A stretch of 64,000 nucleotides of DNA from contig OY725502.1 of the NCBI GenBank assembly GCA_963281255.1, positions 620,001-684,000 on the forward strand, given 5' to 3'. Positions 35,115 through 63,776 of the stretch are shown here, piece by piece. Made by a program: the position numbers and the translations under genes. How positions within the stretch are numbered: the stretch's first letter is position 1; every line of letters starts with the position of its first letter. The notes beneath the pieces were generated by a model. That model saw only the letters and a program-made list of their open reading frames with translations. It did not search any database and was not told the DNA's origin. This DNA is from Aphrocallistes beatrix (lineage: Eukaryota > Porifera > Hexactinellida > Sceptrulophora > Aphrocallistidae).

Positions 35115-36644
35115 ATGAAGAGTGAACGAATTTCCAACAATGAAATAATCTTGATTAGTAATCAGCATGTGAAGGGAGCAGAAACAGGAGTGAGGCAATC
35201 CGTTCAACTAAAAAGTAATAGCAAATGGAAATTGTTAGACGGTAAGAAATCCTGTATTGTATTGAGTGTTGTTAGTAGCCTAGCAATCTGGACTATATTG
35301 CTTGTTCCCCTCATCGTCTTGATTGTAAAGGTTGGAACCAATTTAGAGTTAGCGAGTACCAATAACACTATTTTCAATCTCCTCCCTCCCATTAATGTCA
35401 CTTCCAACTACTCTAACTTTACAATAGAGCGTGTAGAGTGTGTGGATAACTTTGTTTATGTGCCTGGAGATGAAATCTGCTATCCGGAATGTGATTGGAA
35501 TCCTTCAGGAGATGATAGTGTCAAAATTGTTGGATTGTTTTTGGGTATTTTGAGCGTTTTCAGTATTGTGCTGTGTACAGCTACACTGATAGCCTGGTTA
35601 CTGTTAAGTTGCATTGATTGGAAGAAATTTCGATTCCATTACGATTTCCAACTTCCTCGTACTTCTCTGTTCATGGTAGTGATGAGCAGTTTGTTCCTCG
35701 TAGTTATCAACGCTTCAATTGATCTTATGCAGAGAGATTTTTTTTTCTGTCAATTCACAAAAGATGGGCAGTCGTATCTTCTTCCTCACATGTTCAACTC
35801 AGTCAGCAACGTTCTTGACATTAAAATAATCACAAACGTCATCGGTGCTCTAAATAATTATTCATTTTTAGTTACCATTGGTTGGATCTTACTGTCTTTG
35901 CTGAATATCATGGTTGTTGTTTTCTTCCCGCAATTGAGAAATAGTTTCAGGAAGAGGATATTTATTTTTTTGGTTCAATGTTTCTGTTGTTTTGGGTTGA
36001 ATATAATTCCAATCGTTATAGCAATAAGTGTGAATCCAGAGTCTCCATATGTAGTTAATATTCTAGCATCTTTTATTGGCATTTCCAATCCATTGGTCTT
36101 TTTCTTATTCTTCGCTTTCCCTCATTTCCTCACTCCTTCGTTAGTTATCTCACTGATTATCATCATTATCACAAAATTACGCTTAGTTTCTCTAAGATCT
36201 AAGGAAATGACAGGACAGGCAATCAAGTTGACGGATCTTGAGAAGAGATTGATTATTTATAGTTTTGGACTGATGGTACTTTTACTTGTTCATGGAATTG
36301 ACATCATTCTCTTGGCCTTCCTTACTCCTGGGTACTTCGAGTCTGTAACCAAGTTCATCCTCTGCATGACTGTCAACAGTCCCATACTGACTCTACCTTC
36401 TAACTTCACTGGCAGCAATGCTACCTTGAATAACACAGTACCTGTGTACAGAGAGAACCCGTATGGAGATGTGGATGCTTGTAGGATGTTGGAGTCAGAA
36501 GCTGATAGGTATCTTCCCCATTCTATTATCCTTTCACTGACAATATACTTACGCCTGATTTGGATACCCGTATTTTTCGTTCTCATCCCACTTATCACAC
36601 CGAAAATTTTGAGAAATTGGATCAGAACATTACGAACTAAATAA
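35115..36644 (+). CDS. Class F-like (Frizzled-type core) receptor, array 2 gene 1
   Basis: 509 residues from the ATG at 35115, one codon after an adjacent ATG, because MK-(x)2-RI is the start seen in the sister genes. The basic cytoplasmic tail is about 45 residues. It is followed by a hydrophobic segment (about 48-74), an ectodomain of about 65 residues with three sequons (NVT, NYS, NFT) and the cysteine cluster ECVDNF...CYPECDW, then seven helices. Class F-like marks: IDWKKFRFHYDFQLPRTSLF after the first core helix, a cysteine in the first outer loop (FFFCQ), ITKLRLVSLRS and KLTDLEKRLIIY flanking the sixth, and a glycosylated last outer loop with NFTGSNATLNNTV. There is no cysteine-rich domain. 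Predicted plasma-membrane receptor with unknown ligand. Confidence 0.7.
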   Translation: MKSERISNNEIILISNQHVKGAETGVRQSVQLKSNSKWKLLDGKKSCIVLSVVSSLAIWTILLVPLIVLIVKVGTNLELASTNNTIFNLLPPINVTSNYSNFTIERVECVDNFVYVPGDEICYPECDWNPSGDDSVKIVGLFLGILSVFSIVLCTATLIAWLLLSCIDWKKFRFHYDFQLPRTSLFMVVMSSLFLVVINASIDLMQRDFFFCQFTKDGQSYLLPHMFNSVSNVLDIKIITNVIGALNNYSFLVTIGWILLSLLNIMVVVFFPQLRNSFRKRIFIFLVQCFCCFGLNIIPIVIAISVNPESPYVVNILASFIGISNPLVFFLFFAFPHFLTPSLVISLIIIIITKLRLVSLRSKEMTGQAIKLTDLEKRLIIYSFGLMVLLLVHGIDIILLAFLTPGYFESVTKFILCMTVNSPILTLPSNFTGSNATLNNTVPVYRENPYGDVDACRMLESEADRYLPHSIILSLTIYLRLIWIPVFFVLIPLITPKILRNWIRTLRTK

Positions 36645-37856
36645 AGAATAATTCAGAAAACAACCGGAATTTCTCTAATACAAAAGCATTGGTCAATTCT
36701 TGTTTGATTCGCATATATTTACCCAGAAGAAGATCCGGACTCATTGATCATATTGTGTGTGTGTGGTAGTATTGATAATCTGAATTTATAACAGTTGTGT
36801 ACAGTACAAATAAAGTGATATTCCTTATGCTTCTATAGTTGTAAACGAAACGACTAGATCAACATCAATAAACTACTTTTCTTAATATTTCCCGTTCTTA
36901 AACGTATGCTTGCACCTTCGCATGCGATGTATTGATATTTTGTGATGACCCAAGTAATCGGGAATCCTTTCTTCTAATTTGATTTGAAATTATTAAAACA
37001 TAACAAACATCAGAATAACTTTATAGCCTCGAAGATCCTGAATGACGTTGATTGCTCTCTCTAGCATACATTTGCAAATTGCTCACTTGGATATCTTATA
37101 TATTGAAACGCTAGGATTTTTATGTATTTGTTTGTCCGAATTGAATAAAGTCGTGTAGAGATACGAAAATTGGCATTTAGGTGTTAAATGATGAGTCTAG
37201 GATTAAGTTCGAAGATCAAGCAAATTTTCACACCTCTGCAAATAAACACTTTTAGCTTAATTAAATAAGAATTTTTACAAAAGGTGTGAAAATATGTGTA
37301 CATATATGCATATGTAGAATTTCCGCATTATTACTTTCAAAGTGCGAAAATCGGAATCTACACATTATAATACCCAACATTAGCCTTAAAAGTGTGGAAA
37401 TAATGCTTTTGTTCGAGATTGTCCTTAGGAATAGGACCCTTAATCACAATTAATATACTTGAAGTAGTCTATTAATTGAAATATAATATTATTGAATATA
37501 AATTTCCAATTTGAACAAACGAACAAACACATATAAACATTTTATTTTTAAAATAACTGTTTGCAGCCAACCTACAGAATTAATAATGACTACATACATA
37601 CACAAACTAGATATGCTTATTCATAGACAAAACTAGTCCATTTTAGAGGACACTGGCACAATTACACATCCTGGTTTATAATACAAAGTGTAAGGCCTTC
37701 CCACTTTGCTCTAAGTAATATGCTCACCCAGCAATTAGAGCCTATAGTTGCTATATATTATTAATAACTGAAGTATTACATTATTTTCCAATATAAAGTG
37801 TCTCTATAAATCTTTCTCAGTAGTTTTGTTTGCATTTTGTTACTTTTTATTTTGTG
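36645..37856. other. Intergenic, AT-rich, between array 2 genes 1 and 2
   Basis: No coding sequence or clear element. The section 37170-37400 has several GTGTGAAAAT/GTGCGAAAAT-like phrases but no defined repeat. Confidence 0.35.
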
Positions 37857-39395
37857 ATGAAAACGGGACGATTCATCAGCACTAGTAGTGAAATAGAATT
37901 GATTGATAATGATTTTAACCAATCTGAATCGCAGACAACAACTCATCCAATTGTTAGGAAGAAGTTAAGGTTAGGAAGTAAGGAAGTTTGTATTGGTTTG
38001 AGTGTCATTAGCATTATAATAGTATGGATAATCCTGCTCACCCCAATCTGTGTAAGGCTTGGAACGAATCGAGATCAGACACCTGTGACTAACACTATCT
38101 TCAATCTCCTCCCTCCCATTAATGTCACTTCCAACTACTCTAACTTTACAATAGAGCGTGTAGAGTGTGTGGATAACTTTGTTTATGTGCCTGGAGACGA
38201 GATGTGCTATCCGGAATGTGATTGGAATCCTTCAGGAGATATTAGTAAAAAAATTATTCGATTGTTTTTAGACATTTTGAGTGTTTTCAGTATTGTGCTG
38301 TGTACAACTACACTGATAGCCTGGTTACTGTTAAGCTGCATTGATTGGAAGAAATTTCGATTCCATTACGATTTCCAACTTCCTCGTACTTCTCTGTTCA
38401 TGGTAGTGATGAGCAGTTTGTTCCTCGTAGTTATCAACGCTTCTATTGATCTGACGTCTCGAGATTTCTTTTTCTGTCAATCCACGAAAGAAGGGAAATC
38501 CTATCTTCTCGCACACCTCTTCTATTCAATCAGCAATGTGTACTATAGGAAAGTTGTTACGTGGGTGATTGGTGCACTTTTCCAGTATTTTTTATTCGTC
38601 ACTTTATCTTGGATTGTATTTTCACTGATAAACATTAATGTTGTCATTTTCTTTCCACATTTGAGAGAAAGTTTGAGAAAGCGAATACTCTTTTTCTTGT
38701 TTCAGTGCCTGGTTTGTTTTGGATTAAACATAATCCCTGTGGTCATAGTGATTGCTGCGAATCCAGAGTCTCCATATTTTGCTGCGTACCTAATAGATGT
38801 TTTCAATATATTCAACATTTGGGGAAGCATATTTTTCGTTGATATACCTTTTTTCTTGATCCCTGGAATTTTGATTTCGTTGATTATCGTGACTGTTACG
38901 AAACTCCGCATCACATCTCTACAGTCTAGAGAGACTACGGGTAGGGCATTCAAGTTGACAGATCTCGAGAAGAGATTGATTATATATAGCATTGTGTTGA
39001 TGCTCCTGTTGCTTCTTCAGGGAGTTAATTTTATTCTGTTCCGTATTATTATTATTCAAAACTTTTTCGCGTTTGTAACCAAGTTCATCCTCTGCATGAC
39101 TGTCAACAGTCCCATACTGACTCTGCCTTCTAACTTCACTGGCAGCAATGCTACCTTGAATGACACAGTACCTGTGTACAGAGAGAACCCGTATGGAGAT
39201 GTGGATGCTTGTAGAATGCTGGAGTCAGAAGCTTTTAGATTATATCCTCATTACCTCGTTATATCATTTCCAATATACCTACGCTTAGGTTGGATACTTG
39301 TTTTTTTCGTTCTTGTACCCCTTTGCACCCCAAAATCTTTAATTGATTGGATCAGAAGAATGAAAGACAGACTGAAATCTGATATATTAAATTAA
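37857..39395 (+). CDS. Class F-like receptor, array 2 gene 2
   Basis: 512 residues from MKTGRFIS; an upstream in-frame ATG at 37830 would add nine hydrophobic residues that the sisters lack. Same layout as gene 1, with a shorter first extracellular stretch before the invariant TNTIFNLLPPINVTSNYSNF block. The third-loop motif reads TKLRITSLQS then FKLTDLEKRLIIYS. The C terminus carries TPKSLIDWIRRMKD. The tail and helices are among the most divergent of the array, while both outer blocks match the sisters almost base for base. Confidence 0.7.
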   Translation: MKTGRFISTSSEIELIDNDFNQSESQTTTHPIVRKKLRLGSKEVCIGLSVISIIIVWIILLTPICVRLGTNRDQTPVTNTIFNLLPPINVTSNYSNFTIERVECVDNFVYVPGDEMCYPECDWNPSGDISKKIIRLFLDILSVFSIVLCTTTLIAWLLLSCIDWKKFRFHYDFQLPRTSLFMVVMSSLFLVVINASIDLTSRDFFFCQSTKEGKSYLLAHLFYSISNVYYRKVVTWVIGALFQYFLFVTLSWIVFSLININVVIFFPHLRESLRKRILFFLFQCLVCFGLNIIPVVIVIAANPESPYFAAYLIDVFNIFNIWGSIFFVDIPFFLIPGILISLIIVTVTKLRITSLQSRETTGRAFKLTDLEKRLIIYSIVLMLLLLLQGVNFILFRIIIIQNFFAFVTKFILCMTVNSPILTLPSNFTGSNATLNDTVPVYRENPYGDVDACRMLESEAFRLYPHYLVISFPIYLRLGWILVFFVLVPLCTPKSLIDWIRRMKDRLKSDILN

Positions 39396-39650
39396 GCAGA
39401 AACACTACGTATATGATTTGCACATTCCTCGTATTTACGCCAATATAATCTGATGTATCTATGAACGATTTAGCTTGTTCTGAATACCCCTCTACTTAGA
39501 GTCCAAGATACGACACTGATTAGCCTCCGAGCAGAACTGAATTTTCTCGTGTTAATAGAGAGTGAATTGTTGAAGAATTTTTCTATGTTTGTAGTAATGT
39601 TTGCATTTTACTAATTAAATGTTTTATAGTATATCTACTTATATACATTA

Positions 39651-40946
39651 TGTCCAATAATTATTGCAACACTAGGGAGATTTCTTAGTGTAACCCAGTA
39701 ACAATAAATATGAAAGTATATGATCTAGTTTTTTGTCTACTTGTTGAGAATACACTAGAGATTAATATTTGATCTTATTTCCATCGTTTTCTACGACCAT
39801 CTGACATCTACGCCTCATAGACTTCCAATAAGGTTCCAAAAATTCGGGTGTGAGAGAATCCCAAATTGCTTGGATACACTTTTCAAGCTCAGTTAGTGAT
39901 TTGGGATGTTGTTTTGAGACTTGATTTTTCAACCAGCCGAATAGATTTTCTATCGGATTAAGGTCTGGTGATTGACTGGGCCATTGAAAGACATTATTTG
40001 GCATTTTTTCTGAGATCCATTGTTGGGCTAATTTTGACCGGTGCTTTGGATCATTATCCTGGACGAGAAACCATCTATTTCCGTGGAAAGTCTCAGCCTG
40101 TGTAAGAAGGGAAGGTACCGAAAGACGAAAATGCAGCCCATATGTGTAATTTCGGTGAGTGTTTGGTAGCTTTTTGTGATCGTTTTTTTCCCGATTTTGT
40201 CCACATTCGAACCTTCCCACGATTAAGCCAGAAAGAGGCTTCATCTGCAAACACAGCTCTACACCACAGTTTAAATTTGTTTTTCTGTGCCCATTCAATT
40301 CTGAAGAGGCGGTTTTTTTCAGACAGCAATGGAATCTGGACAGGAAATGGCTTAGAGTATTTCAGTTTCTGAAGAGTAAGATGGACTGTACTTTTACTGA
40401 CAGTCAGTTTCTTTGTTTTAGCTATCCTGGTTGTAAGTTTACGTACACTAGTCTCTGGATCCGATTTGATGAACTGAGCAGCTGTATATTTTATTGAATC
40501 GCTGAGTAAATTTGGTCTACCACCGCCTCTTTTGTGTTTAAGGGTCATATTTGTTTGGAGCCTTTTTTTGACCCTGTAAACTGTCCCTCGATCAACATCT
40601 AAAATGCGTGAGATTTCAGTAGGTGTATGTTTATCGCCAATCAATAGAGTTTTGATCTTTTCTCTCATCACCTCTTGAGCCATATCAACGCTAAATACTA
40701 AATTATTCAGCTAAAAGGTAAGAGAATTTTCTAATTTATGATGAAAGGTACTAAAATGATGACGTCATCGTATATTATGACGTCATCCCTCATTAGCAAA
40801 TATATAATCCCATTGTGTTTACCCAGATTTATCTTCAAATAGATACCAATTAACTTTATATATTAGTACAATAACTACTACTTATCAAATAGAACTATAG
40901 CAGTGGTTGAAATAGAAATAATGATGTGTTGCAATAATTATTGGAC
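39651..40946 (-). mobile_element. Tc1-like transposon with broken transposase
   Basis: Inverted ends TGTCCAATAATTATTGCAAC (39651) and its complement (to 40946). The transposase lies on the minus strand, 40683 to 39762. It has a helix-turn-helix N terminus (TEISRILDVDRGTVYRVKK), a GGGRPN linker, the first catalytic block FADEASFW, then a deletion of roughly 20 codons with a frame change near 40110, then QDNDPKH and SPDLNPIENLFGWLK (DD34E type). It is inactive as encoded. It lies between array 2 genes 2 and 3. A related but intact element is at 47235. Confidence 0.88.
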
Positions 40947-41624
40947 ATTATTGGACGTAAGTATTTATCCATGCTAGATTAGATATTTGCAAATTTCTTA
41001 GTCTTTTAATGACGGATTTGATGATTGATCATGGCTGAAATCGGACTAGTTATAAAGTAGCTTTACCTGTACTTGCTTGCACGTATGTCGTATACAGTGG
41101 CGTAGCCAGCTTGAGTGATTGCCCAGGCATACACTGGACACAATCTGAAATCTTATTGATAGGAAAATTAACACAGAATTTATATTATCTTCAGAACTCT
41201 GATTCATCTTCTTTATACTCTCAAATATAGTTAGCTAGCATTTGTTTCAATGTTGGATTGCCTTGTCACACATACTAATAGTCACAATTATGTTGTATTA
41301 TAAACACGCACAAACAGAGATGCTAACCTTTGAAACTGAAAATCCGTGAGAGTCAAGAAAAATTAAATACTACTTAGTATATTTGAAGAAACATCTGTTG
41401 GAATATTATCTTCAGTGAATTTAAGAATCATGCTTAGTTGTAAAAGTATCCTTTTCAGTCATCATTACTAATTAGCAGAATAGGATGGAGCTAAGTGCAA
41501 ATTCGTAGTAACGGCATTGATAGTCTTTACCTCTTGATATAGCCTATAACAGCGTTCAATTGAACCAAGTTAGTAATAATTCAGTATTCTTGTTGGATTA
41601 GTATACTCAGTTTATATTTTTGAA
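40947..41624. promoter_or_regulatory. 5' region of array 2 gene 3 with a block shared by genes 3-5
   Basis: At about 41394-41440 the sequence TGGAATATTATCTTCAGTGA, followed by TTAAGAATCATGCTTAGTTG, recurs 200-240 bp upstream of gene 4 (43977-44015) and gene 5 (48580-48620). It is a candidate shared promoter element. Near 41096, CAGTGGCGTAGCCAGC resembles one end of a hAT-type MITE, but its partner is not clear. Confidence 0.4.
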
Positions 41625-43148
41625 ATGGAAAATGAGAGAATTACCGGCAGTGTGATAGAGTTGATCGATAATAAACATGAGAAGGAGAGAGAAAAAAAGA
41701 CGACCATTCATCGGATTGTTAAGTGGGAGAAGTTAAGGTTAGGAGGTAAGAAGTTCTGTATTGGTTTGAGTATCATTAGTATTATAATGGTATGGATAAT
41801 CATGTTGATCCCTTTTACTGTAATTACAGTGCAGCTTGCTGATAATGCTGTCATTACAACTGTGACTAACACTATATTCAATCTCCTCCCTCCCATTAAT
41901 GTCACTTCCAACTACTCTAACTTTACAATAGAGCGTGTAGAGTGTGTGGATAACTTTGTTTATGTGCCTGGAGATGAGATGTGTTATCCGGAATGTGATT
42001 GGAATCCTTCAGGAGATGACAGTGTCAGAATTGTTCGATTGTTTTTGGGTATTTTGAACGTTTTTAGTATTGTGTTGTGTACAGCTACACTGATAGCCTG
42101 GTTACTGTTAAGTTGCATTGATTGGAAGAAATTTCGATTCCATTACGATTTTCAACTTCCTCGTACTTCTCTGTTCATGGTAGTGCTGACCAGTTTGTTC
42201 CTCGTAGTTATCAACGCTTCAATGGATCTCATGTCTCGAGATTTCTTTTTCTGTCAATCCACTCAAGATGGACAATCCTATCTTCTCGCACAAATGTTCT
42301 ACTCAATCAGTGATGTGCGTTCTAGGAAGATTGTTACTTTCGTGACTGGGGCACTGAGTCATTACATATTCCTAGTGACGATATCTTGGATTGTAATCTC
42401 ACTGATAAACATAATTTTCATTGTTTTTTTCCCTCAAGTAAGAAAAAGTTTTAGAAAACGTATACTTGTTTTTTTGCTTCAATGTCTCATCTGCTTTGGG
42501 CTCAATATAATCCCTGTAGCTATAGCGATTGCTTCAAATTCTGATACTCCATATGCTGTCGTTTATTTACTAAATAATAACATTATTTTTAATCGCTGGT
42601 CTTTTTTATTACTCTCTGAAATGCCTTTTTTCTTAGTTCCTGGAATTACCATTTCGTTGACTATCGTGATTATTGCAAAGTTGCGTATCACATCTCTAGA
42701 ATCAGAAGAAACGACAGGACACTCATTCAAATTAACAGATCTCGAGAAGAGATTGATTGTGTATGGAATTGTGCTGATGTTCCTAATGCTGGCTCAAGGA
42801 ATTAATTCTATTCCATTGAGTTTTATTTCTCGCGAATACTTCGAGTCTGTAACCAAGTTCATCCTCTGCATAACTGTCAACAGTCCCATACTGACTCTGC
42901 CTTCTAACTTCACTGGCAGCAATGCTACCTTGAATGACACAGTACCTGTGTACAGAGAGAACCCTTATGGAGATGTGGATGCTTGTAGGATGTTTGAGTC
43001 AAGAGCTTTTGAACTTTATCCTCAATCCAGTTTCATAATTTTTTCTTTAACATTTCGCTTGATCTGGTTGCCGATTTTCTTTGTCCTAGTTCCTATTACC
43101 ACGCCGAAACAATTGAAGAAATTGTTTAACAGTTTAGGGAGAAAATGA
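41625..43148 (+). CDS. Class F-like receptor, array 2 gene 3
   Basis: 507 residues starting MENERITGSVIELID. It has a charged tail, then a basic anchor LRLGGKKFCIGLSIISI, the glycosylated ectodomain with CYPECDWNPSGDDS and seven helices. From about residue 205 to 385 (the FFFCQ loop to the LEKRL motif) it is nearly identical to genes 4 and 5, at silent sites too, and distinct from the other genes. This marks a subgroup or recent conversion. The C-terminal segment TPKQLKKLFNSLGRK lacks the tryptophan found in the others. Confidence 0.7.
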   Translation: MENERITGSVIELIDNKHEKEREKKTTIHRIVKWEKLRLGGKKFCIGLSIISIIMVWIIMLIPFTVITVQLADNAVITTVTNTIFNLLPPINVTSNYSNFTIERVECVDNFVYVPGDEMCYPECDWNPSGDDSVRIVRLFLGILNVFSIVLCTATLIAWLLLSCIDWKKFRFHYDFQLPRTSLFMVVLTSLFLVVINASMDLMSRDFFFCQSTQDGQSYLLAQMFYSISDVRSRKIVTFVTGALSHYIFLVTISWIVISLINIIFIVFFPQVRKSFRKRILVFLLQCLICFGLNIIPVAIAIASNSDTPYAVVYLLNNNIIFNRWSFLLLSEMPFFLVPGITISLTIVIIAKLRITSLESEETTGHSFKLTDLEKRLIVYGIVLMFLMLAQGINSIPLSFISREYFESVTKFILCITVNSPILTLPSNFTGSNATLNDTVPVYRENPYGDVDACRMFESRAFELYPQSSFIIFSLTFRLIWLPIFFVLVPITTPKQLKKLFNSLGRK

Positions 43149-44210: not shown

Positions 44211-45734
44211 ATGAAAAAAGATCGAATTACCAGCAGTGAACTGGGCATGCTTGATGATAAACATGAGAAAAAGAAAGAAAAACAGACAACAACTTTTTCA
44301 GTTGTTAAAAAAACAAAGTTAAGGTTAGGAGGTAAGAAGTTCTGTATTAATTTGAGTATCATTAGCATTATAATGGTATGGATAATCATGCTAATCCCTT
44401 TTACTGTAATTACAGTACAGCTTGCAAAGACTGATGTCAATACAACTGTGACTAACACTATATTCAATCTCCTCCCTCCCATTAATGTCACTTCCAACTA
44501 CTCTAACTTTACAATAGAGCGTATAGAATGTGTGGATAACTTTGTTTATGAACCTAGAGACGAGATCTGTTATCCGGAATGTGATTGGAATCCCTCAGGG
44601 GATGACACAATCAGAAATGTTGGATATGTGGTAGGTACTTTCAGCGTTTTCAGTATTGTGCTGTGTACAGCTACACTGATAGCCTGGTTACTGTTAAGCT
44701 GCATTGATTGGAAGAAATTTCGATTTCATTACGATTTTCAACTTCCTCGTACTTCTCTGTTCATGGTAGTGATGAGCAGTTTGTTCCTCGTAGTTATCAA
44801 CGCTTCTATTGATCTCACTTCTCGAGATTTCTTTTTCTGTCAATCCACTCAAGATGGACAATCCTATCTTCTCGCACAAATGTTCTACTCAATCAGTAAT
44901 GTGCGTTCTAGGAAGATTGTTACTTTCGTGACTGGGGCACTGAGTCATTACATATTCCTAGTGACGATATCTTGGATTGTAATCTCACTGATAAACATAA
45001 TTTTCATTGTTTTTTTCCCTCAAGTAAGAAAAAGTTTTAGAAAACGTATACTTGTTTTTTTGCTTCAATGTCTCATCTGCTTTGGGCTCAATATAATCTT
45101 TGTAGCTATAGCGATTGCTTCAAATTCTGATACTCCATTTACTGTCATTTATTTACTAAACACAAACATTATTTTTAATCGCTGGTCTTTTTTATTACTC
45201 TCTGAAATGCCTTTTTTCTTAGTTCCTGGAATTACCATTTCGTTGACTATCGTGATTATTGCAAAGTTGCGTATCACATCTCTAGAATCAGAAGAAACGA
45301 CAGGACACTCATTCAAATTAACAGATCTCGAGAAGAGATTGATTGTGTATGGAATTGTGCTGATGTTCCTAATGCTTTTTCAAGGAATTAGTTCCATTTC
45401 TTTAAGTTTTATTTCTCCTGAATACTTCCAGTTTGTAACCAAGTTCATCCTCTGCATGACTGTCAACAGTCCCATACTGACTCTGCCTTCTAACTTCACT
45501 GGCAGCAATGCTACCTTGAATGACACAGTACCTGTGTACAGAGAGAACCCTTATGGAGATGTGGATGCTTGTAGAATGTTTGAGTTAGAAGCTTTTCAAT
45601 TTTATCCTCAATTCAGTATCATAATCTTTGCTTTAATATTTCGCTTGATCTGGTTGCCAATTTTCTTTGTCTTAGTCCCGAATCCCACGGTAGCACAACT
45701 GAGGAAATGGTTTAAGTGTTTGAGGGCGAGGTAA
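44211..45734 (+). CDS. Class F-like receptor, array 2 gene 4
   Basis: 507 residues starting MKKDRITSSELGMLDD. It has the standard array layout: basic tail, N-terminal anchor, ectodomain with the variant VYEPRDEICYPECDW (PGDE in most sisters), and a core almost identical to gene 3 between the first outer loop and the LEKRL motif. The last helix is followed by PTVAQLRKWFKCLRAR. It is intact, with all outer-loop cysteines and sequons present. Confidence 0.7.
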   Translation: MKKDRITSSELGMLDDKHEKKKEKQTTTFSVVKKTKLRLGGKKFCINLSIISIIMVWIIMLIPFTVITVQLAKTDVNTTVTNTIFNLLPPINVTSNYSNFTIERIECVDNFVYEPRDEICYPECDWNPSGDDTIRNVGYVVGTFSVFSIVLCTATLIAWLLLSCIDWKKFRFHYDFQLPRTSLFMVVMSSLFLVVINASIDLTSRDFFFCQSTQDGQSYLLAQMFYSISNVRSRKIVTFVTGALSHYIFLVTISWIVISLINIIFIVFFPQVRKSFRKRILVFLLQCLICFGLNIIFVAIAIASNSDTPFTVIYLLNTNIIFNRWSFLLLSEMPFFLVPGITISLTIVIIAKLRITSLESEETTGHSFKLTDLEKRLIVYGIVLMFLMLFQGISSISLSFISPEYFQFVTKFILCMTVNSPILTLPSNFTGSNATLNDTVPVYRENPYGDVDACRMFELEAFQFYPQFSIIIFALIFRLIWLPIFFVLVPNPTVAQLRKWFKCLRAR

Positions 45735-46151: not shown

Positions 46152-46253
46152 TACAGTAGACCCTCGATTATCCGACACCTCGATTATCCGAACAGTGTGT
46201 TCGAGTACCACTCATTTTATCAAATACTTTTCAATCGAATTTGTGAAAATGAT

Positions 46254-47234: not shown

Positions 47235-48579
47235 CAGTCTGTCACATAATTATTAAGAATCTTACCCAATTTCTATATGACCATAATCTTTTAAAATATC
47301 ATTGGTCAAGTTGATTCAATGCAATTTCACCTTAATTTGAAGTGTTTATATTGCAAATATGTCATGATATTGGTATATTATGTTATTAATTCGTGTGAAC
47401 GCTAATAATTTCAGAGATGATTCGTGTTTTTACCTATTTTAGACTTTTATAACATTGATTTAATATTTCTACATGAATTAGCACTTATTTTTACCACAAA
47501 TGGCTCAAAAACTTAAGCGAGAGCAAATAGATTTGTTACTAGAAACAACAGACCTGTCAATAAAGGAAATTGCTGAAAAATTAGGAGTCAGTGTCTCAAC
47601 GGTCTATTTAGTGAAATCGAGAAAATCACGCGACGTTGGATTAGGACATGGTAGTGGTGGCGGAAGACCCAGAACATTTACCAAGTCAACGATGAGGTGT
47701 GTAACCCAACAAATTCGACGCAAACCTTATCTTTCATTACGTACCTTAGCACAAATTGCTCCTGGAAAGCCCTCATATGAGACGGTTCGACGAAACCTAA
47801 AGGAGATGAAATACTCCAAGATCTACCCGACTAATTCACCGATGGTGAGCGAAAAGAATCGTCAGAGTAGAATACAATGGGCAAAGAAACACAAGTATCC
47901 TAAATCATCATGGTCTAAAACCGTTTTCATTGATGAGATGTCCATCTGGCTCTCTAGGGGTCGGATACAGATGTGGACGAAATCAGGAAAAAAACGGGTC
48001 GCTCCAACCACTAAGCACGCCCCTAAAATTAATGTTTGGGCTGGTTTTAGCTCTATGGGAACATTTCCCCTCTGTGTTTTCACTACAAATATGGATAGCC
48101 TGAAGTTTATTGAGATTTTGGAAGGTCATTTACTGGAGCAGGCAAAGGTTTTCCATCAAGATGACTGGCGGTTAGTGATGGATAACGACCCCAAGCACAC
48201 CTCGAAAATCGTGAGGGCCTTCATCGACAAAAACGTGCCTATGCAACTTCCTTGGCCTTCTCAAAGCCCAGATCTAAACCCTATTGAAAATTTATTTGCT
48301 TGGGTGAAGAGGGAATTGATTAAAAAAGGGCCTAGAACAATTTCTGAGCTAAAAAGGATGCTCGAAGATACTTGGTCAGGGATAAGTTCCGAATTCTTAC
48401 AACCATATTGCCAGTCAATGCCTGAAAGATGTAAAATGGTGATTGCATCCGAAGGTTTTCCTATAAATTATTGATTAATAGCTATTTATCTTACTAAAAA
48501 TTAATTTTGAAGTCAATTACTTATACCTTGTGAGTACTGTGATTTATTGAGTAATTCTTAATAATTATGTGACAGACTG
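47235..48579 (+). mobile_element. Intact Tc1-like transposon
   Basis: 1345 bp with inverted ends CAGTCTGTCACATAATTATT and complement, and TA at 47233-47234 and 48580-48581. It carries a full transposase. The insertion split the promoter block conserved between array 2 genes 3, 4 and 5, whose uninterrupted forms are at 41394 and 43977. It lies about 240 bp upstream of gene 5. Confidence 0.92.
47500..48474 (+). CDS. Tc1-family transposase (DD34E), complete
   Basis: 324 residues, the usual Tc1 length. N-terminal helix-turn-helix domains (IKEIAEKLGVSVSTVYLVKS), the linker GGGRPRT, a second DNA-binding part with YSKIYPTNSPMVSEKNRQ, then the catalytic triad: D in FIDEMSIW, D in VMDNDPKHTS and E in SPDLNPIENLFAWVK. 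The usual GRP and WPSQSPDLNP blocks are present. There is no stop or frameshift, so it could encode an active enzyme that cuts and pastes its own 1.3-kb element. A cousin at 39651 is inactivated. Confidence 0.95.
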   Translation: MAQKLKREQIDLLLETTDLSIKEIAEKLGVSVSTVYLVKSRKSRDVGLGHGSGGGRPRTFTKSTMRCVTQQIRRKPYLSLRTLAQIAPGKPSYETVRRNLKEMKYSKIYPTNSPMVSEKNRQSRIQWAKKHKYPKSSWSKTVFIDEMSIWLSRGRIQMWTKSGKKRVAPTTKHAPKINVWAGFSSMGTFPLCVFTTNMDSLKFIEILEGHLLEQAKVFHQDDWRLVMDNDPKHTSKIVRAFIDKNVPMQLPWPSQSPDLNPIENLFAWVKRELIKKGPRTISELKRMLEDTWSGISSEFLQPYCQSMPERCKMVIASEGFPINY

Positions 48580-48819: not shown

Positions 48820-50370
48820 ATGAAAATTGATCGAATCACCACAAGTGAAATTGACTTGCTTGATGATAAATCTGAGAAGAAGATAGAGAAACAGACAGCA
48901 ATTCAACCGACTGTTAAAAATAAGAAGTTAAGGTTAGGAGGTAAGAAGGTCTGTGTTGGTGTAAGTATCATTAGCATCGCACTAGTATGGATAGTCTTAC
49001 TTTCGCCCATCGGTGCGCTAACCATACAAATTGCTATGGCTAATCTGACTGCAACTACGACTGTGACTAACACTATATTCAATCTCCTCCCTCCCATTAA
49101 TGTCACTTCCAACTACTCTAACTTTACAATAGAGCGTGTAGAGTGTCTGGATAACTTTGTTTATGAACCTAGAGATGGGGTGTGTTATCCGAAATGTAAT
49201 TGGAATCCTTCGAGAGATGACAGTGTCAGAATTGTTCGACTGTTTTTAGGTATTTTGAGCGTTTTCAGTATTGTTCTGTGTACAACTACACTGATAGCCT
49301 GGTTACTGTTAAGCTGTATTGATTGGAAGAAATTTCGATTCCATTACGATTTCCAACTTCCTCGTACTTCTCTGTTCATGGTAGTGATGAGCAGTTTGTT
49401 CCTCGTAGTCCTCAACGCGTCTATTGATCTCACGTCTCGAGATTTCTTTTTCTGTCAATCCACTCAAGATGGACAATCCTATCTTCTCGCACAAATGTTC
49501 TACTCAATCAGTAATGTGCGTTCTAGGAAGATTGTTACTTTCGTGACTGGGGCACTGAGTCATTACTTATTCCTAGTGACGATATCTTGGATTGTAATCT
49601 CACTGATAAACATAATTTTCATTGTTTTTCTCCCTCAAGTAAGAAAAAGTTTTAGAAAACGTATACTTGTTTTTTTGCTTCAATGTCTCATCTGCTTTGG
49701 GCTCAATATAATCCCTGTAGCTATAGCGATTGCTTCAAATTCTGATACTCCATATGCTGTCGTTTATTTACTAAATACTAACATTCTTTTGAATTTCTGG
49801 TCTTTTTTAATACTCTTTGAAATGCCTAATTTTTTAGTTCCTGGAATTATCATTTCGTTGACTATCGTGATTATTGCAAAGTTGCGTATCACATCTCTAG
49901 AATCAGAAGAAACGACAGGACACTCATTCAAATTAACAGATCTCGAGAAGAGATTGATTGTGTATGGAATTGTGCTGATGGTCCTAATACTGGTTCAAGG
50001 AATTAGTTCCATTTCTTTAAGTTTTATTTCTCCTGAATACTTCCAGTTTGTAACCAAGTTCATCCTCTGCATAACTGTCAACAGTCCCATACTGACTCTG
50101 CCTTCTAACCTCACTGGCAGCGATGCTACCTTGAATGACACAGTACCTGTGTACAGAGAGAACCCTTATGGAGATGTGGATGCTTGTAGAATGTTTGAGT
50201 CAAGAGCTTTGGAACTTTATCCTCAATTCACTCCTATAATTTTTACTTTATTATATCGCTTGATCTGGTTGCCGATTTTCTTTGTCCTCGTCCCGCAGCC
50301 CACAGTGACACAATTGAGAAAATGGTTTAAATGTTTAAAGGAGTGGCAATTTTCTCAGAATTTTGTTTGA
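48820..50370 (+). CDS. Class F-like receptor, array 2 gene 5
   Basis: 516 residues starting MKIDRITTSEIDLLDD. Core region nearly identical to genes 3 and 4. It differs in the normally constant blocks: ECLDNFVYEPRDGVCYPKCNW (acidic residues changed) and, in the last outer loop, SNLTGSDATLN, where NFT and NAT become NLT and DAT. The second change removes one sequon. The C terminus is PTVTQLRKWFKCLKEW plus a short extension. It is intact. Its upstream region is interrupted by the Tc1-like insertion. Confidence 0.7.
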   Translation: MKIDRITTSEIDLLDDKSEKKIEKQTAIQPTVKNKKLRLGGKKVCVGVSIISIALVWIVLLSPIGALTIQIAMANLTATTTVTNTIFNLLPPINVTSNYSNFTIERVECLDNFVYEPRDGVCYPKCNWNPSRDDSVRIVRLFLGILSVFSIVLCTTTLIAWLLLSCIDWKKFRFHYDFQLPRTSLFMVVMSSLFLVVLNASIDLTSRDFFFCQSTQDGQSYLLAQMFYSISNVRSRKIVTFVTGALSHYLFLVTISWIVISLINIIFIVFLPQVRKSFRKRILVFLLQCLICFGLNIIPVAIAIASNSDTPYAVVYLLNTNILLNFWSFLILFEMPNFLVPGIIISLTIVIIAKLRITSLESEETTGHSFKLTDLEKRLIVYGIVLMVLILVQGISSISLSFISPEYFQFVTKFILCITVNSPILTLPSNLTGSDATLNDTVPVYRENPYGDVDACRMFESRALELYPQFTPIIFTLLYRLIWLPIFFVLVPQPTVTQLRKWFKCLKEWQFSQNFV

Positions 50371-57065: not shown

Positions 57066-59127
57066 TATGAATCAACTAATGAATCAACTACCACCAGTGC
57101 AATGGAATTACTTGAAAGTAAACAAGAGAAAAAAGTGAGTAAACAGACGACTATTCATCCAGTTGTTAAAAGGAAGAAGTTAAGGTTAGGAGGTAAGAAA
57201 GTTTGCATTGGTTTGAGTATCATTAGTATCATATTCATATGGATAGTCTTACTTATTCCAAGCACTGTGATCATCATAAACGTTCTAGGCAATAATCAAA
57301 GTGACAATACAACTGTGAATAACACTATATTCAACCTCCTCCCTCCCATTAATGTCACTTCCAACTACTCTAACTTTACAATAGAGCGTGTAGAGTGTGT
57401 GGATAACTTTGTTTATGTGTCTGGAGATGAAATATGCTATCCGGAATGTGATTGGAATCCTTCAAGAGATGATAGCGTGAGAATTGTCCATTTGATTTTG
57501 AAAATTTTGAGTATTTTGAGTATTGTGCTGTGTACAACTACACTGATAGCCTGGTTACTGTTAAGCTGCATTGACTGGAAAAAGGTACGATTCCATTACG
57601 ATTTCCAACTTCCTCGTACTTCTCTGTTCATGGTAGTGATGAGCAGTTTGTTCCTCGTAGTCCTCAACGCGTCTATTGACCTAATGTCTCGAGATTTCTT
57701 TTTCTGTCAATCCACTGAAAATGGACAATCCTATCTTCTCGCCCACATATTCTATTCAATCAGTAACAATACTTATAACAAACTGGTTACAAATGTGATT
57801 GGTGCGCTCTACCATTATCTATTCCTAGTAACTATATTTTGGGTTATATTGTCACTAATTAACGTCAATATCATTCTATTCTTTCCTTTTTGGAGAGGAA
57901 GTTTCAAGAAAAAACTTTCAATTTTCTTGATCCAGTGCTTTGTTTGTTTTGGAATCAATTTGATCCCTGTGGTTATTCTGATTGTTGTGAATCCACAGTT
58001 GCCTTACGTAGCTTCCTCTTTAATACTTTCTTTCAGTACTCTCAATATTTGGGCGTATATATTCTTCATCAATATGCCACTTTTCATAGCACCTGGAATG
58101 TTGATTTCATTAACTATAGTGATTGTCACGAAATTACGGATAACATCTATAGAATCCCAAAAGAGGACAGGCCACAAGATTAAACTGACAGATCTCGAGA
58201 AGAGATTGATTGTGTATATGCCATTGTTTTAATCACTTTACTGCTATTTCAAGCAATTAATGCCATTTTCTTAACAACATTTCCTCCTGAATACTTCGAG
58301 TTTGTAACCAAGTTCATCCTCTGCATGACTGTCAACAGTCCCATACTGACTCTACCTTCTAACTTCACTGGCAGCAATGCTACCTTGAATGACACAGTAC
58401 CTGTGTACAGAGAGAACCCTTATGGAGATGTGGATGCTTGTAGGATGCTGGAGTCAGAAGCTAGCGTACTTCTTCCTAAATTCAGTTTCATTTTATATGT
58501 TACAAGCGCGCTTCGCTTGCTTGCGCTGCGCGGCTGGCGGACACTTTGTGTCCCATTGGTTAATTATAGGGGAGATAGCATCTCTAAATATGTCTGTCCT
58601 ACTGTTATAATCGATATCACTCAAGAAGTCACCAAATTTGTCAATTATAAAATTTTTGATGCGTAATGATGACGTCATAACAAAGTGATGACTCATCATT
58701 TTTTGACGATAGTTGTATCATATGTGACGCATGATAGTATACAGATTCTATTAAAATTTCAGCCTTCTATCTCCTATAATGGCTGAGTTATAACTGTATT
58801 GCTTATAAAAATGTGACAATGACGTCATAATTCCATGATGAGTCGACATTTTCGTCTGAGCTCAGAACTTACTGGAGCCATAGCCAAAAAACTCCCACAT
58901 GCCAAAAATCAGCTTTCTACACCCGGCAGTTTCTTCAATCAATTCGTTACAGATATATATATATATATACACAAACAAACAATAATCGAGTTTTAATAGT
59001 AAGGATATTATCTCGCTTAATTTGGTTGCCTTTTTTTTTTGTTCTCGTTCCACAAATTACTTTGAGGCATTTGAAAACGTTGTACAAAAGTGTAAAGAAT
59101 TCTATTCTCAAAATGTACGTTCCATAA
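57066..59127 (+). pseudogene. Class F-like receptor, array 2 gene 8 (three lesions, Helitron-like insertion)
   Basis: Homologous to gene 10 but (1) the usual start codon is lost, so the first in-frame ATG is at 57102 (MELLESKQEKK), 16 residues late. (2) A two-base gain near 58215 (GTGTATATGCC for GTATATGCC) shifts the frame, which stops at 58232. (3) A 503-bp Helitron-like element sits in the last helix at 58503-59005, after which the coding remnant resumes (59006-59127). The middle (about 57560-57800) is almost identical to gene 6 rather than gene 10, so the gene is a mosaic. Not functional as a full receptor. Confidence 0.8.
58503..59005 (-). mobile_element. Helitron-like element, copy B (503 bp), inside receptor gene 8
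   Basis: Minus-strand ends TCCTTACTATTAAAACTCG and GCGCGCTTG. The flanks A (58502) and T (59006) rejoin to a sequence of exactly the length of gene 10 at 63640-63660, so there is no target duplication. It shares AATGACGTCATAATTCCATG and CATTTTCGTCTGAGCTCAGA with copies A and C. Confidence 0.75.
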
Positions 59128-59457
59128 CAATGTATAATTCTTTATTCCGTGTTTATTTTTTTTGTTTATTTGTCTGTACGTGTATATACTCGTTAAAGAT
59201 TTAAAATAGTTTGATTTCGTTTAATAATGTCTATTTTGCTTGTATATATAATCTTGTTGGATATTCTAGTTAAAAGTTTGTTTTTACTTTTTTGCTATTA
59301 TAGGAGATCTCTGAACGGTGAATAATCCAGTATGTATATCCATTTGCTCTTTCCTAGGAAATATAATGGGCTTAAAATTGCATCAAATCTGACCATATTC
59401 TTTATGTAGTAAATATTTGCAACTAAATGCAACTTTTGGTTTCACTCTTTAACCGAA
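59128..59457. other. 3' flank of broken gene 8
   Basis: Matches the 3' flank of gene 10 (63777 onward), including CTATTATAGGAGATCTCTGA near 59298, then diverges before the gene 9 fragment. Confidence 0.5.
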
Positions 59458-59866
59458 GTTGTTGCCTTAATGTTGTTTCAAGGAATTAATCTCATTTTCT
59501 TGAGCTTAGTTTCACTCGAATACTTCCAGTGTGTAACCAAGTTCATCCTCTGCATAACTGTCAACAGTCCCATACTGACTCTACCTTCTAACTTCACTGG
59601 CAGCAATGCTACCTTGAATGACACAGTACCTGTGTACAGAGAGAACCCTTATGAACAGTTTGGACGCCTGTAAAATGTTTGAATCAGAAGCCGATAGACT
59701 GTTCCCTCAATTTACCCTCATACTTGTTAATGTGTTATTTCGCTTGATTTGGGTACCTGTGTTTTTCGTGTTTATCACTCATGTCACACCGAAAATCCTG
59801 AAGAAATGGTATACATGTTTGAATGAGAAGTACTCTTCCCGAATTACATTCATTTTCTCCCCTTAA
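59458..59866 (+). pseudogene. Class F-like receptor, array 2 fragment 9 (3' end only, frameshifted)
   Basis: Only the last third of a gene 6-like receptor remains: the seventh-helix region (LFQGINLIFLSLVSLEYF), the last outer loop, the last helix and the tail KKWYTCLNEKYSS. The outer loop carries the same ACAGTTTGGAC change as gene 7 (TTATGAACAGTTTGGAC), so the frame breaks at the same codon. The 5' part is absent, with a sharp start at about 59458. Confidence 0.75.
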
Positions 59867-60017
59867 CACGATTTCCAGTTGATGCTTCATGGATCTTACA
59901 TAACAATTAGTTAGATTTCCTTTTGTTGAAATTCAGGAAATATTTGCTTGTAAATATGCTATATGTATTATTATTGGTATTATTATTAATTGTTTTCTTG
60001 GGATATATATATATATA

Positions 60018-60341
60018 CAAGCGTGCTGAGTCATCATTTTTTGATGATAGTTGCATAATATGTGAGGTATGTTAGTATACAGATTTTATTAAAATTTCAG
60101 CCTTCTATCTCCTATAATGGCTGAGTTATAACTGTATTGCTTATAAAAATGTGACAATGACGTCATAATTCCATGATGAGTCGACATTTTCGTCTGAGCT
60201 CAGAACTTACTGGAACCATAGCTAAAAGACTCCTACATGCCAAAAATCAGCTTTCTGTGCCTGGCAGTTTCTTCAATCAATTCGTTACAGATATATATAT
60301 ATATATATATACACACATTAATCGAGTTTTAATAGTAAGGA
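60018..60341 (-). mobile_element. Helitron-like element, copy C (internally deleted, 324 bp)
   Basis: Same termini as copies A and B, but about 180 bp next to the CAAGCG end is missing (GCGTGCTGAGTCATC junction). The flank is an AT dinucleotide run on the left and T on the right. Confidence 0.65.
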
Positions 60342-60346
60342 TATAT

Positions 60347-60551
60347 CATAGGCGTCGGATCCACCCGGTTATGGGCTGGATAGGCCCAGAGGGCCTACCT
60401 GACTGGATAAAAGCTTACCCGATACATTCCCAAAGTACTAGAGCCGTGTATCAGGCAGTATGATGTATTATGCCGTGAATGTAGCGGCCCCAGAATCGAT
60501 TGGGCCGACCCCGGAGCCTTCGGGCCGGCGGGCCCATTTCCGATGCCTATG
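60347..60551. mobile_element. GC-rich hAT-type MITE
   Basis: 205 bp. Ends CATAGGCGTCGGA and TCCGATGCCTATG, with flanking 8-mers GGATATAT (60339-60346) and AGATATAT (60552-60559). It is unusually GC-rich for this region. Confidence 0.7.
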
Positions 60552-60557
60552 AGATAT

Positions 60558-60725
60558 ATATAGTCAGCAAAGGACAACAAACGGGTGGCCGCTGGCCGCG
60601 TTGTGCAGGTGACCGCTATACACAGGTTCAATATTATGGAATTTCGGACGGGACTGTTCATTAGTGACCGTTATAAACAGGTGACCATTATATAGAGTGG
60701 CCTTATAGCAGGTTCAAGTGTATAT
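60558..60725. mobile_element. pogo-like MITE, inverted partial copy
   Basis: Reverse complement of 60733-60900 with about 5% differences, ending CAGGTTCAAGTG. It stands head to head with the next element, forming a palindrome centred near 60729. The other end is missing. Confidence 0.7.
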
Positions 60726-60732
60726 ATAAATG

Positions 60733-61135
60733 CAGTCGAACCTGCTATAACGGCCACTCTATATAACGGTCACCTGTCTATAGCGGTCATCAATGAACAG
60801 TCCCGTCCGAAATTCCATAGTATTGAACCTGTGTATAGCGGTCACCTGCTCAACGCGGCCAGCGGCCACCCGTTTGTTGTCCCTTACTGACCCTAAAATT
60901 GTGTATAACGGCTATCACCTTTTCACCCTTTATGTTTTATTACAAGACCTGTTAAGAATAATAATCAAGTTTCATAAAATTATTTTAACTAATGGATATC
61001 TATAAACTTGTTATTTATTGCACTACGTTGATACCTTTTGGGGATTAAGACAATCACCTGTATATAACGGTCACCTGTGTATAACGGCCAATTTTGTTCA
61101 GTCCCTTGGGTGGCCGTTATATACAGGTTCCACTG
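60733..61135. mobile_element. pogo-like nonautonomous element (403 bp)
   Basis: Ends CAGTCGAACCTGCTATAACG and the complement ATATACAGGTTCCACTG, followed by TA on the right. It contains many copies of the phrase TATAACGGTCACCTGT. No coding sequence. Confidence 0.75.
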
Positions 61136-61140
61136 TACTT

Positions 61141-61175
61141 GTATATACACATTGATCGAGTTTTAATAGTAAGGA
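61141..61175 (-). mobile_element. Helitron-like element, copy E (terminal fragment)
   Basis: Only the TC end is present (complement of TCGAGTTTTAATAGTAAGGA), followed by TTGTTATGC. This is the same target as copy D (56694) and as the empty site at 54418. Confidence 0.6.
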
Positions 61176-61283
61176 TTGTTATGCTGGTAACAAATTATGA
61201 AAAGCGTTTTGTCTCTTGTCTCTTTTTCTATTGTGTAACTATGCACTCCTTTCCCTATGGCTATCACCCCCTACCCCAATCTA

Positions 61284-62055
61284 CAGGGTGGCTTTTAAGT
61301 TCTTTCCCAAGCTTGATTAGGTATAAAATTTCTTATACTCAAACAATATTAGTTATTATGGTCTTTAGAGATTGTAATTCAAATATTCTCAATGATTCTA
61401 AAAGATTTTTCGAGTCTAAGACCTATAACTGTGTTTTGTATGATGAGTTTTGTGGAGAAAATATGTGTCCTGGCGCGCAGCGAAATTCGAGAATCAGGGT
61501 CACTGCTTCTGTAAAAAATGTCTCTATAATCGATGTTCCATGACGATTTAGCACCAGATACCTTTCATTCACCAAGGAAATATTTCACAAATCCATTGAA
61601 TTCATTATCAGAAACGAGATAAATTATTATTTCACGTGTTCAAATTAGCTATATTTTGCAAAATCACCCAAAATGGCACTTTTTTTCACATCACCAAAAA
61701 TCTGATCCAAATGGTTCTCAATATATACTGATCTAAACATCCTATATTTCTACAAATTTAGAGTGTTCGAGGAAAATGTGAGAGCTAATTTGTCCTAGAA
61801 TTTGAAGACTCTAGAAATATAATTTGAAAAGCAGTGGGCCCTGATTCTCGAATTTCGCTGCGCGCCAGGACACATATTTTCTCCACAAAACTCACCATAC
61901 AAAACACAGTTCTAGGTCTTAGACTCGAAAAATCTTTTAAAATTATTAAGGAATATTTGAATTACAATCTCTAAAGACCATAATAACTAAGATTGTTTGA
62001 GTATAATAAATTTTATACCTAATCAAGCTTGGGAAAGAACTTAAAAGCCACCCTG
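61284..62055. mobile_element. Fold-back mariner-type element with CAGGGTGGC ends (772 bp)
   Basis: Inverted repeats of about 230 bp, starting CAGGGTGGCTTTTAAGTTCT, enclose a unique 300-bp centre. TA stands at 61282-61283 and 62056-62057. The paralogous promoter of gene 7 (54510-54520, CCCAATCTAAATCTC) is the empty site, which confirms a TA duplication. It lies in the promoter region of gene 10. Confidence 0.85.
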
Positions 62056-62225
62056 TAAATCTTCAATGGTATAGTTTAAATATGTAACATTCATTGTCCT
62101 TATCTTGAACTATCGAGCAAATGATAGTGCATTAAAATATGTATGCTTATAGTAATAAGTTCATATATAACTGATTAGTTGTTAAATTGGATCTTGAATT
62201 ACATTATTTTCATCTATACTCTGCA

Positions 62226-63776
62226 ATGGAAAATGAATCAACTACCACCAGTGCAATGGAATTATTTGAAAGTAAACAAGAGAAAAAAGTGAATAAACAG
62301 ACGACTATTCATCCAGTTGTTAAAAGGAAGAAGTTAAGGTTAGGAGGTAAGAAAGTTTGTGTTGGTTTGAGTATCATTAGTATCATATTCATATGGATAG
62401 TCTTACTTATTCCAATCACTGTGATCACCATACATTTTGCAGACAATAATCAAAGTGATTTTTTGACTGTGACTAACACTATATTCAATCTCCTCCCTCC
62501 CATTAATGTCACTTCCAACTACTCTAACTTTACAATAGAGCGTGTAGAGTGTGTGGATAACTTTGTTTATGAACCTAGAGACGAGATCTGTTATCCGGAA
62601 TGTAATTGGAATCCTTCAAGAGATGATAGCGTGAGAATTGTCCATTTGATTTTGAAAATTTTGAGCGTTTTCAGTATTGTGCTGTGTACAGCTACACTGA
62701 TAGCCTGGTTACTGTTAAGCTGCATTGATTGGAAGAAATTTCGATTCCATTACGATTTCCAACTTTCTCGTACTTCTCTGTTCATGGTAGTGATGAGCAG
62801 TTTGTTCATCGTAGCCCTCACCGCGTCTATTGACCTAATGCCTCGAGAGTTCTTTTTCTGTCAATTCACTGAAAATGGACAATCCTACTCACTTCCTCAC
62901 TTGTTCTACTCAATCAGTAACATTTCTTACAACAAAATAGTTTTAAATGTGATTGGTGCGCTCTACCATTATCTATTCCTAGTAACTATATTTTGGGTTA
63001 TATTGTCACTAATCAACGTCAATATCATTCTATTCTTTCCTTTTTGGAGAGGAAGTTTCAAGAAAAAACTTTCAATTTTCTTGATCCAGTGCTTTGTTTG
63101 TTTTGGGATCAATTTAATCCCTGTGGTTATTCTGATTGCAGTGAATCCACAGTTACCTTACGTAGCTTCCTCTTTAATACTTTTTTTCAGTACTCTGAAT
63201 ATTTGGGCGTATTTATTCCTCATCAATATGCCACTTTTCCTAGCACCTGGAATGTTGATTTCATTGGCTATGGTGAGTGTCACGAAATTACGGATAACAT
63301 CTCTAGAATCCCAAAAGCAGACAGGCCACAAGATTAAACTGACAGGTCTCGAGAAGAGATTGATTGTATATGCCATTGTTTTAATGACTTTATTGATTTT
63401 TCAAGCAATTAATACTATTTTCTTGACCTTCCTTACTCCTGAATACTTCCAGTTTGTAACCAAGTTCATCCTCTGCATGACTGTCAACAGTCCCATACTG
63501 ACTCTGCCTTCTAACTTCACTGGCAGCAATGCTACCTTGAATGACACAGTACCTGTGTACAGAGAGAACCCTTATGGAGATGTGGATGCTTGTAGGATGT
63601 TGGAGTCAGAAGCTAGCTTACTTCTTCCTAAATTCAATTTCATTTTTTATGTTTTATTATCTCGCTTAATTTGGTTGCCTATTTTTTTTGTTCTCGTTCC
63701 ACAAATTACCTTGAGGCAGTTGAAAACGTGGTTCAAAAGTGTAAAGGATTCTATTCTCAAAATGCACGTTCCATAA
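62226..63776 (+). CDS. Class F-like receptor, array 2 gene 10 (intact)
   Basis: 516 residues starting MENESTTTSAMELFES at 62226; an upstream ATG at 62187 would add a hydrophobic 13-mer and is not conserved in gene 8. Layout as in the other genes: basic tail (KRKKLRLGGKKV), N-terminal anchor, ectodomain with VYEPRDEICYPECNW, seven helices, third-loop TKLRITSLES then IKLTGLEKRLIVYA (the usual Asp before LEKRL is Gly here), and an outer loop with four sequons. The C terminus is ITLRQLKTWFKSVKDS. It is the only intact member of the gene 7/8/10 subgroup. A 772-bp fold-back element sits about 170 bp upstream. Confidence 0.72.
   Translation: MENESTTTSAMELFESKQEKKVNKQTTIHPVVKRKKLRLGGKKVCVGLSIISIIFIWIVLLIPITVITIHFADNNQSDFLTVTNTIFNLLPPINVTSNYSNFTIERVECVDNFVYEPRDEICYPECNWNPSRDDSVRIVHLILKILSVFSIVLCTATLIAWLLLSCIDWKKFRFHYDFQLSRTSLFMVVMSSLFIVALTASIDLMPREFFFCQFTENGQSYSLPHLFYSISNISYNKIVLNVIGALYHYLFLVTIFWVILSLINVNIILFFPFWRGSFKKKLSIFLIQCFVCFGINLIPVVILIAVNPQLPYVASSLILFFSTLNIWAYLFLINMPLFLAPGMLISLAMVSVTKLRITSLESQKQTGHKIKLTGLEKRLIVYAIVLMTLLIFQAINTIFLTFLTPEYFQFVTKFILCMTVNSPILTLPSNFTGSNATLNDTVPVYRENPYGDVDACRMLESEASLLLPKFNFIFYVLLSRLIWLPIFFVLVPQITLRQLKTWFKSVKDSILKMHVP

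Follow-up and report, generated by a model that had tools for sequence, protein, structure and literature searches.

The DNA analysed here is a 64,000-nucleotide stretch of the genome of the glass sponge Aphrocallistes beatrix (assembly GCA_963281255.1, contig OY725502.1; C16:620001-684000 in our numbering of contigs), hereafter the window, whose positions are counted from its first nucleotide. Between positions 35115 and 63776 it carries seven intact receptor open reading frames (ORFs) of 507-520 amino acids (aa) and three broken copies, all on the + strand, as a first-pass annotation made from the sequence alone had described. That annotation also called the genes intronless, which holds in the sense that the coding part of each intact gene is a single uninterrupted ORF. 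We read the array, with a probability of roughly two in three, as a locally expanded part of a sponge superfamily of G protein-coupled receptors (GPCRs) that are class F-like but lack the cysteine-rich domain (CRD). The receptor genes, and the two transposase elements in the gaps between them, are listed here, with TM denoting a transmembrane helix and ECL an extracellular loop.

35115..36644, + strand: intact receptor gene 1, 509 aa
37857..39395, + strand: intact receptor gene 2, 512 aa
39762..40683, - strand: Tc1/mariner-like transposase remnant in the gap between genes 2 and 3, two overlapping ORFs, assigned by its likeness, by eye, to the element at 47500
41625..43148, + strand: intact receptor gene 3, 507 aa; its product was used for the structure model
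44211..45734, + strand: intact receptor gene 4, 507 aa
47500..48474, + strand: Tc1/mariner-like transposase ORF of 324 aa in the gap between genes 4 and 5 (DDE_3 4.3e-21, HTH_Tnp_Tc3_2 5.2e-12)
48820..50370, + strand: intact receptor gene 5, 516 aa
52649..54211, + strand: intact receptor gene 6, 520 aa
54683..56050, + strand: broken receptor copy whose homology keeps to a single frame as far as about residue 451, after which the ORF departs
57102..58663, + strand: broken receptor copy with a frame break near 58214 (TM6)
59458..59830, + strand: broken 3' receptor fragment, part of TM6-ECL3-TM7, with an internal frame break
62226..63776, + strand: intact receptor gene 7, 516 aa

Compared with the protein of gene 1, the remaining six intact ones show 60-66% identity. 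Receptor copies run on past position 63776 to about C16:698826, one of them on the opposite strand, and close copies of the window receptors are also found on contigs C1 and C3. Immediately beyond the window, at C16:687755-690606 (L062:3755-6606), direct sequence comparison reveals 713-bp tandem units that each hold a TM6-ECL3-TM7 receptor fragment; three of the units are identical and the fourth is 79% alike; the identity among the units may reflect an assembly artefact, and Tandem Repeats Finder, with a longest period of 500, missed them.

In each receptor protein an N-terminal membrane anchor is followed by an ectodomain of about 60 residues, which contains three cysteines, and then by seven helices. 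An extra anchor giving eight hydrophobic segments had been proposed, and hydropathy finds eight in five of the seven proteins and nine in the other two, where the surplus segment precedes TM5. N-glycosylation sequons fall mostly in the ectodomain (3-4 in each protein) and in ECL3 (2-3), in keeping with the proposed short glycosylated ectodomain in place of the CRD; none of the six array proteins scanned matches the CRD model PF01392 even at E<=10. The sequence motifs reported earlier recur in all seven intact proteins, with the segment in the first intracellular loop (ICL1) now corrected to D-W-K-K-[FV]-R-F-x4-Q-L-[PS]-R-T: the spacing is x4 instead of x5, and the proline position may be serine (QLSRT in gene 7, at 62226). 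The motif KTxxxW is missing from all seven proteins, as had been noted, and the looser T-x6-W said to stand in its place occurs in six, the protein of gene 3 (41625) being without the W. Among eight relatives of the type found on contig C19, the segment after TM7 reads [ED]TxxxW in six, VTxxxW in one and neither in one. All seven window genes encode two cysteines in ECL3, and all seven lack a cysteine in ECL2. Class F receptors have a disulfide between TM3 and ECL2.

The array proteins are predicted to adopt a class F seven-helix fold with a hinge domain. AlphaFold2, run without a template on the protein of gene 3, gave a model with a predicted local distance difference test score (pLDDT) of 75 and a predicted template modelling score (pTM) of 0.73; a first model (pLDDT 55.6, pTM 0.48) was too weak to use alone and returned some unrelated helical matches. 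Compared with known structures, as the first-pass annotation had suggested doing against Smoothened and Frizzled, the better model places Frizzled/Smoothened in rows 1-20 of the 50 listed, with Z up to 21.4, and superposes the array ectodomain on the class F hinge; the best match outside Frizzled/Smoothened has Z 19.6. All 50 rows are GPCRs, with class A chains lower down and no adhesion receptors among them, and in Foldseek nine of 11 matches are class F, with adhesion receptors at ranks 10 and 11. It is very improbable that the proteins are instead non-receptor membrane proteins such as a transporter or an enzyme: the lack of any Pfam domain above cut-off in the six proteins scanned and the unrelated matches of the first model would suit such a reading, but the uniformly GPCR rows and the class F-like hinge cysteines and ICL1 speak against it.

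The cysteine layout was read from an alignment of the 34 members of the superfamily profile A3 together with the relative L011 (C19:353265-354443). The three hinge cysteines are found in 35, 35 and 33 of these 35 members and the ECL1 cysteine in 33; in ECL3 the first cysteine is found in 30 and the second in 18, the column holding 17 gaps. According to the portions of the cited papers available to us, to which all citations here are limited, three hinge cysteines characterize the class F subclasses except Fzd5/8, and two ECL3 cysteines occur in Smoothened and most Frizzleds (PMC7442489). The 6.32-like place of TM6 holds R in 29 members, Q in 5 and K in 1, and class F receptors use an R6.32-W7.55 switch (PMC8225760). 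A tryptophan ten residues ahead of the helix-8 tryptophan is present in FZDs and in L009, a Frizzled of this genome; read by eye, the 7.55-like place of the window genes is without one.

Sequence profiles support class F less strongly than structure does, and the lead of class F over adhesion receptors for the whole superfamily is modest. In profile-profile comparisons with balanced sets (class F: four human FZDs with L009 and L010; adhesion: three human and two own sequences), the superfamily matches class F at 97.5% and E 7.7e-12 over 278 columns that start at the hinge, and adhesion receptors at 97.0% and E 1.2e-10 over 179 columns; with the window clade removed the values are 3.6e-13 (337 columns) and 6.4e-10 (182 columns). 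Searched against PDB sequences, profile A3 returns 24 at E<=10, of which 20 are Frizzled/Smoothened, and the five below 0.01 are four Frizzled sequences (best 2.9e-4) and the adhesion receptor E1 (0.0017). The other profiles gave less: A1 returned none at E<=10, A2 adhesion E1 alone (E 1.5) and A4 archaerhodopsin alone (E 0.42). L011 passes the Pfam Frizzled model (PF01534) at 3.2e-9 and is 24-29% identical to window-array proteins (best E 6e-10), but its link to Frizzled is not robust alone because its relatives in A4, 59-65% identical to it, fail that model (0 of 37 reach E 0.1); precomputed PF01534 appears only on P0030 among the 24 database matches listed.

Several of these results count against class F kinship. 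None of the six array proteins scanned matches PF01534, and in the wider member sets one of 34 does so, at 0.0058, and none of 37. The window clade alone lies nearer adhesion receptors (52-83%) than class F (0.7-11%), and an unbalanced test, in which four own adhesion sequences stood against two own class F ones, ranks adhesion first (6.6e-11 versus 1.4e-6). The lead of class F in the structural ranking is small, and it comes from a predicted model. The leaning of the window clade, the unbalanced test, the adhesion E value close behind that of class F in the balanced test, and the TM3 segment HYxFLxxxxW, which resembles adhesion TM3, would also fit a separate GPCR lineage near class F and adhesion/class B whose hinge-like ectodomain was kept or converged upon. 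We consider such a lineage a serious but less likely rival, given that the adhesion alignment covers mainly TM2-ECL2 whereas the class F alignment starts at the hinge, that structural ranking and cysteine layout favour class F, and that no match to PF00002 at E<=0.1 was found among the 34 and 37 superfamily members scanned. Nor do the six array proteins have a Pfam match to GAIN/GPS, and their ectodomain is just about 60 residues long. Class A was rejected: hhalign to the genome's own class A receptor L079 gave only 0.3-0.7%, and PF00001 found no match in the six array proteins or in the 34 and 37 members. Class F is the better home because of the length of the match, the structure and the cysteine layout, and a class F-like identity without CRD fits best. 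The kinship first put forward is thus supported in part, on structure and cysteines; by profile, class F is modestly ahead for the superfamily as a whole, and the window clade taken alone tends toward adhesion receptors.

The array makes up a single branch within a much larger family, in agreement with the earlier suggestion of a lineage-specific receptor family. Searches with one window protein, one C19 relative and three other queries gave 84 rows, merged to at least 71 loci on 13 contigs (the genome has 100.5 Mb in 28 contigs). This is a lower bound since only the best-scoring candidates were taken in, and it undercounts loci because merging joined some separate fragments to neighbouring genes. 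In 59 loci the frame stays open for at least 440 aa; six of these carry a flag for a stop within the match, one flag stemming from a fragment merged with a neighbouring gene. All organism-named relatives among the matches listed are proteins of the glass sponge Oopsacas minuta: LOD99_14034, 43% identical to the window protein, and LOD99_9675, 49% identical to the C19 relative.

A genome search with PF01534 places three proteins over cut-off: L009, which has a CRD (PF01392 8e-13; PF01534 1e-53), L010, which has none (PF01534 4.4e-30), and L011. L009 is probably the FzdB of glass sponges. No Wnt match was found in the genome at E<=0.01, in a search whose control also matched nowhere, and of two DIX matches one is DIXDC1-like and one axin-like by eye, with Dishevelled not detected. 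These findings agree with what the available parts of two reports state for glass sponges, namely that fzdB is retained and wnt, wls, dvl and fzdA are missing (PMC5684314, PMC10280926). Among other GPCRs, the genome has 117 matches to PF00002 (adhesion), fragments included, and one to PF00001 (rhodopsin-like) at E<=1e-5; in Amphimedon, 126 Rhodopsins are reported (PMC4302439).

Divergence between the copies is mosaic. We compared fourfold-degenerate sites in 12 of the 14 near-complete genes of the window clade, omitting C16:691773 (cut at the locus border), C16:697570 (shorter) and the broken copies. Within C16 (36 pairs), 185 of 1723 sites differ (0.11) in residues 81-220, the ectodomain-TM2 block, and 47 of 821 (0.06) in residues 411-460, the ECL3 block, compared with 886 of 2304 (0.38) in all other residues. 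For the same three partitions the values are 0.09, 0.10 and 0.36 between C16 and C1 (18 pairs), 0.20, 0.10 and 0.35 between C16 and C3 (9 pairs), where the contrast is weaker, and 0.21, 0.08 and 0.50 between C1 and C3 (2 pairs). The low silent-site divergence of the two blocks relative to the rest suggests concerted evolution, most clearly in the ectodomain-TM2 block, which is not purely extracellular since it holds TM1, ICL1 and TM2. In a run test, 27 of the 66 pairs fall below 0.05/66 and 41 below 0.01, the pairs not being independent. The remaining 25 pairs are not below 0.01, and some of the longest runs fall outside both blocks, which recent duplication would explain.

Instead of conversion, constraint at the nucleotide level, imposed by signals in RNA, regulatory signals or others, could also underlie the low silent divergence of the two blocks. 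It is in favour of constraint that the same two blocks are lowest in all four comparisons within and between contigs. Ectodomain protein identity, however, is 91% among the genome's own copies and 96% among P0016-18, which we assume to be one species (P0021 begins at TM1), but between these two groups it is 52%; this counts against constraint because strict constraint should hold the groups alike too. Isolated 3' fragments bearing ECL3 further show piecewise copying at the locus, and we regard constraint as unlikely; it would in any case bear on the mosaic only. ECL3 identity is 92% among own copies, 79% among P0016-18 and 51% between groups, so that in P0016-18 ECL3 (79%) is not distinct from, for example, ICL3 (78%). 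A literature search on gene conversion in chemoreceptor arrays returned no papers, which shows little.

A class F-like receptor without CRD would be built, from the N-terminus, of a cytosolic tail, a signal-anchor helix, an ectodomain matching the Frizzled/Smoothened hinge, seven helices and a short C-tail. The hinge and the long glycosylated ECL3 with its two cysteines could together make up a disulfide-braced lid that covers the helix bundle and meets a shared partner or gates access, and specificity for small or lipid ligands might sit in the divergent helices, like that for sterols in the Smoothened core. Output would pass through heterotrimeric G proteins, independently of Dishevelled, and gene conversion may keep paralogs alike in the lid and in the TM1-TM2 block while the remaining helices diverge. 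Such a combination of shared lid and variable pocket is a tentative proposal that we think less probable than its failure. More speculative and doubtful is the idea that this sponge lineage, with neither Wnt nor Dishevelled detected, reshaped a Frizzled-type core into a GPCR class in its own right, intermediate between class F and adhesion receptors, with eight segments, no CRD and at least 71 loci, the two blocks that hold the lid being kept nearly uniform by conversion even across contigs as most helices diversify. Its members would make up a repertoire for environmental or self-sensing in which the co-receptor or ligand-presenting partner is common to all and the pocket varies, filling the place taken elsewhere by rhodopsin-like receptors.

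Other genes of the window include a second tandem family of about 380 aa at 3429-4526, 6025-7224 and 8340-9601 (+ strand), in which the one protein tested has seven hydrophobic segments and the one scanned has no Pfam match above cut-off. With 106 genome-wide matches, fragments included, this family appears receptor-like and orphan. A sortilin/VPS10 gene with a single ORF lies at 32278-34593 (+; Sortilin-Vps10 1.6e-51, Sortilin_C 1.6e-28) and a Frag1/DRAM/Sfk1 family protein is encoded at 27817-28665 (+; 1.4e-25). A near-identical ORF at 19898-20347 (+) and 20600-21028 (-) forms an inverted repeat.

Of known systems, Frizzled/Smoothened (PF01534 with PF01392) share with the array the predicted seven-helix fold with hinge, three hinge cysteines and an ECL1 cysteine, two cysteines in a long ECL3, an ICL1 segment like F-x-x-P-R, and the 6.32-like arginine. 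The array proteins differ in lacking the CRD, KTxxxW, the ECL2 cysteine and, by eye, the 7.55-like tryptophan, in leaving the Pfam model unmatched, and in carrying an extra N-terminal anchor. Because CRD and KTxxxW define Frizzled/Smoothened (PMC10445921), we place them outside that family proper, as class F-like. The glass-sponge FzdB (probably L009) likewise has a sponge class F core and a divergent KTxxxW (STxxxW in L009), but it has a CRD and the array receptors do not. In Amphimedon, nine Frizzled receptors were first found and three retained as full-length (PMC4302439). Adhesion GPCRs (class B2, PF00002) resemble the array in the TM2-ECL2 profile and in TM3, and differ in ectodomain and in the GAIN/GPS and PF00002 matches that the array is without.

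A precedent, likened by description alone, is the Dictyostelium Fsc receptors, which are Frizzled/Smoothened-like without CRD, have a shorter N-terminus and are amplified in their lineage (PMC10445921); the same source reports that, of the Fsl receptors in D. discoideum, FslJ and FslK alone retain KTxxxW. By description, both Fsc and the array are class F-like, have lost the CRD, have a shorter N-terminus and have expanded, although Fsc is amoebozoan, and neither the extra anchor nor block-wise concerted evolution is mentioned for it in the available part of that source. The literature on CRD-less class F receptors and sponge GPCR expansions yielded no description of the array family. CRD-less class F expansions are thus already known; judged by the portions of the literature available, what is new here is the block-wise contrast at silent sites, and block-wise concerted evolution would predict that the receptors share an outside partner and vary in their membrane pocket. 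So large a class F-like superfamily in a glass sponge, an animal of a group reported to have lost Wnt, would show what role the Frizzled-type core can take when freed from Wnt, and it offers natural CRD-less receptors in which to ask what the seven-helix core and hinge sense alone.

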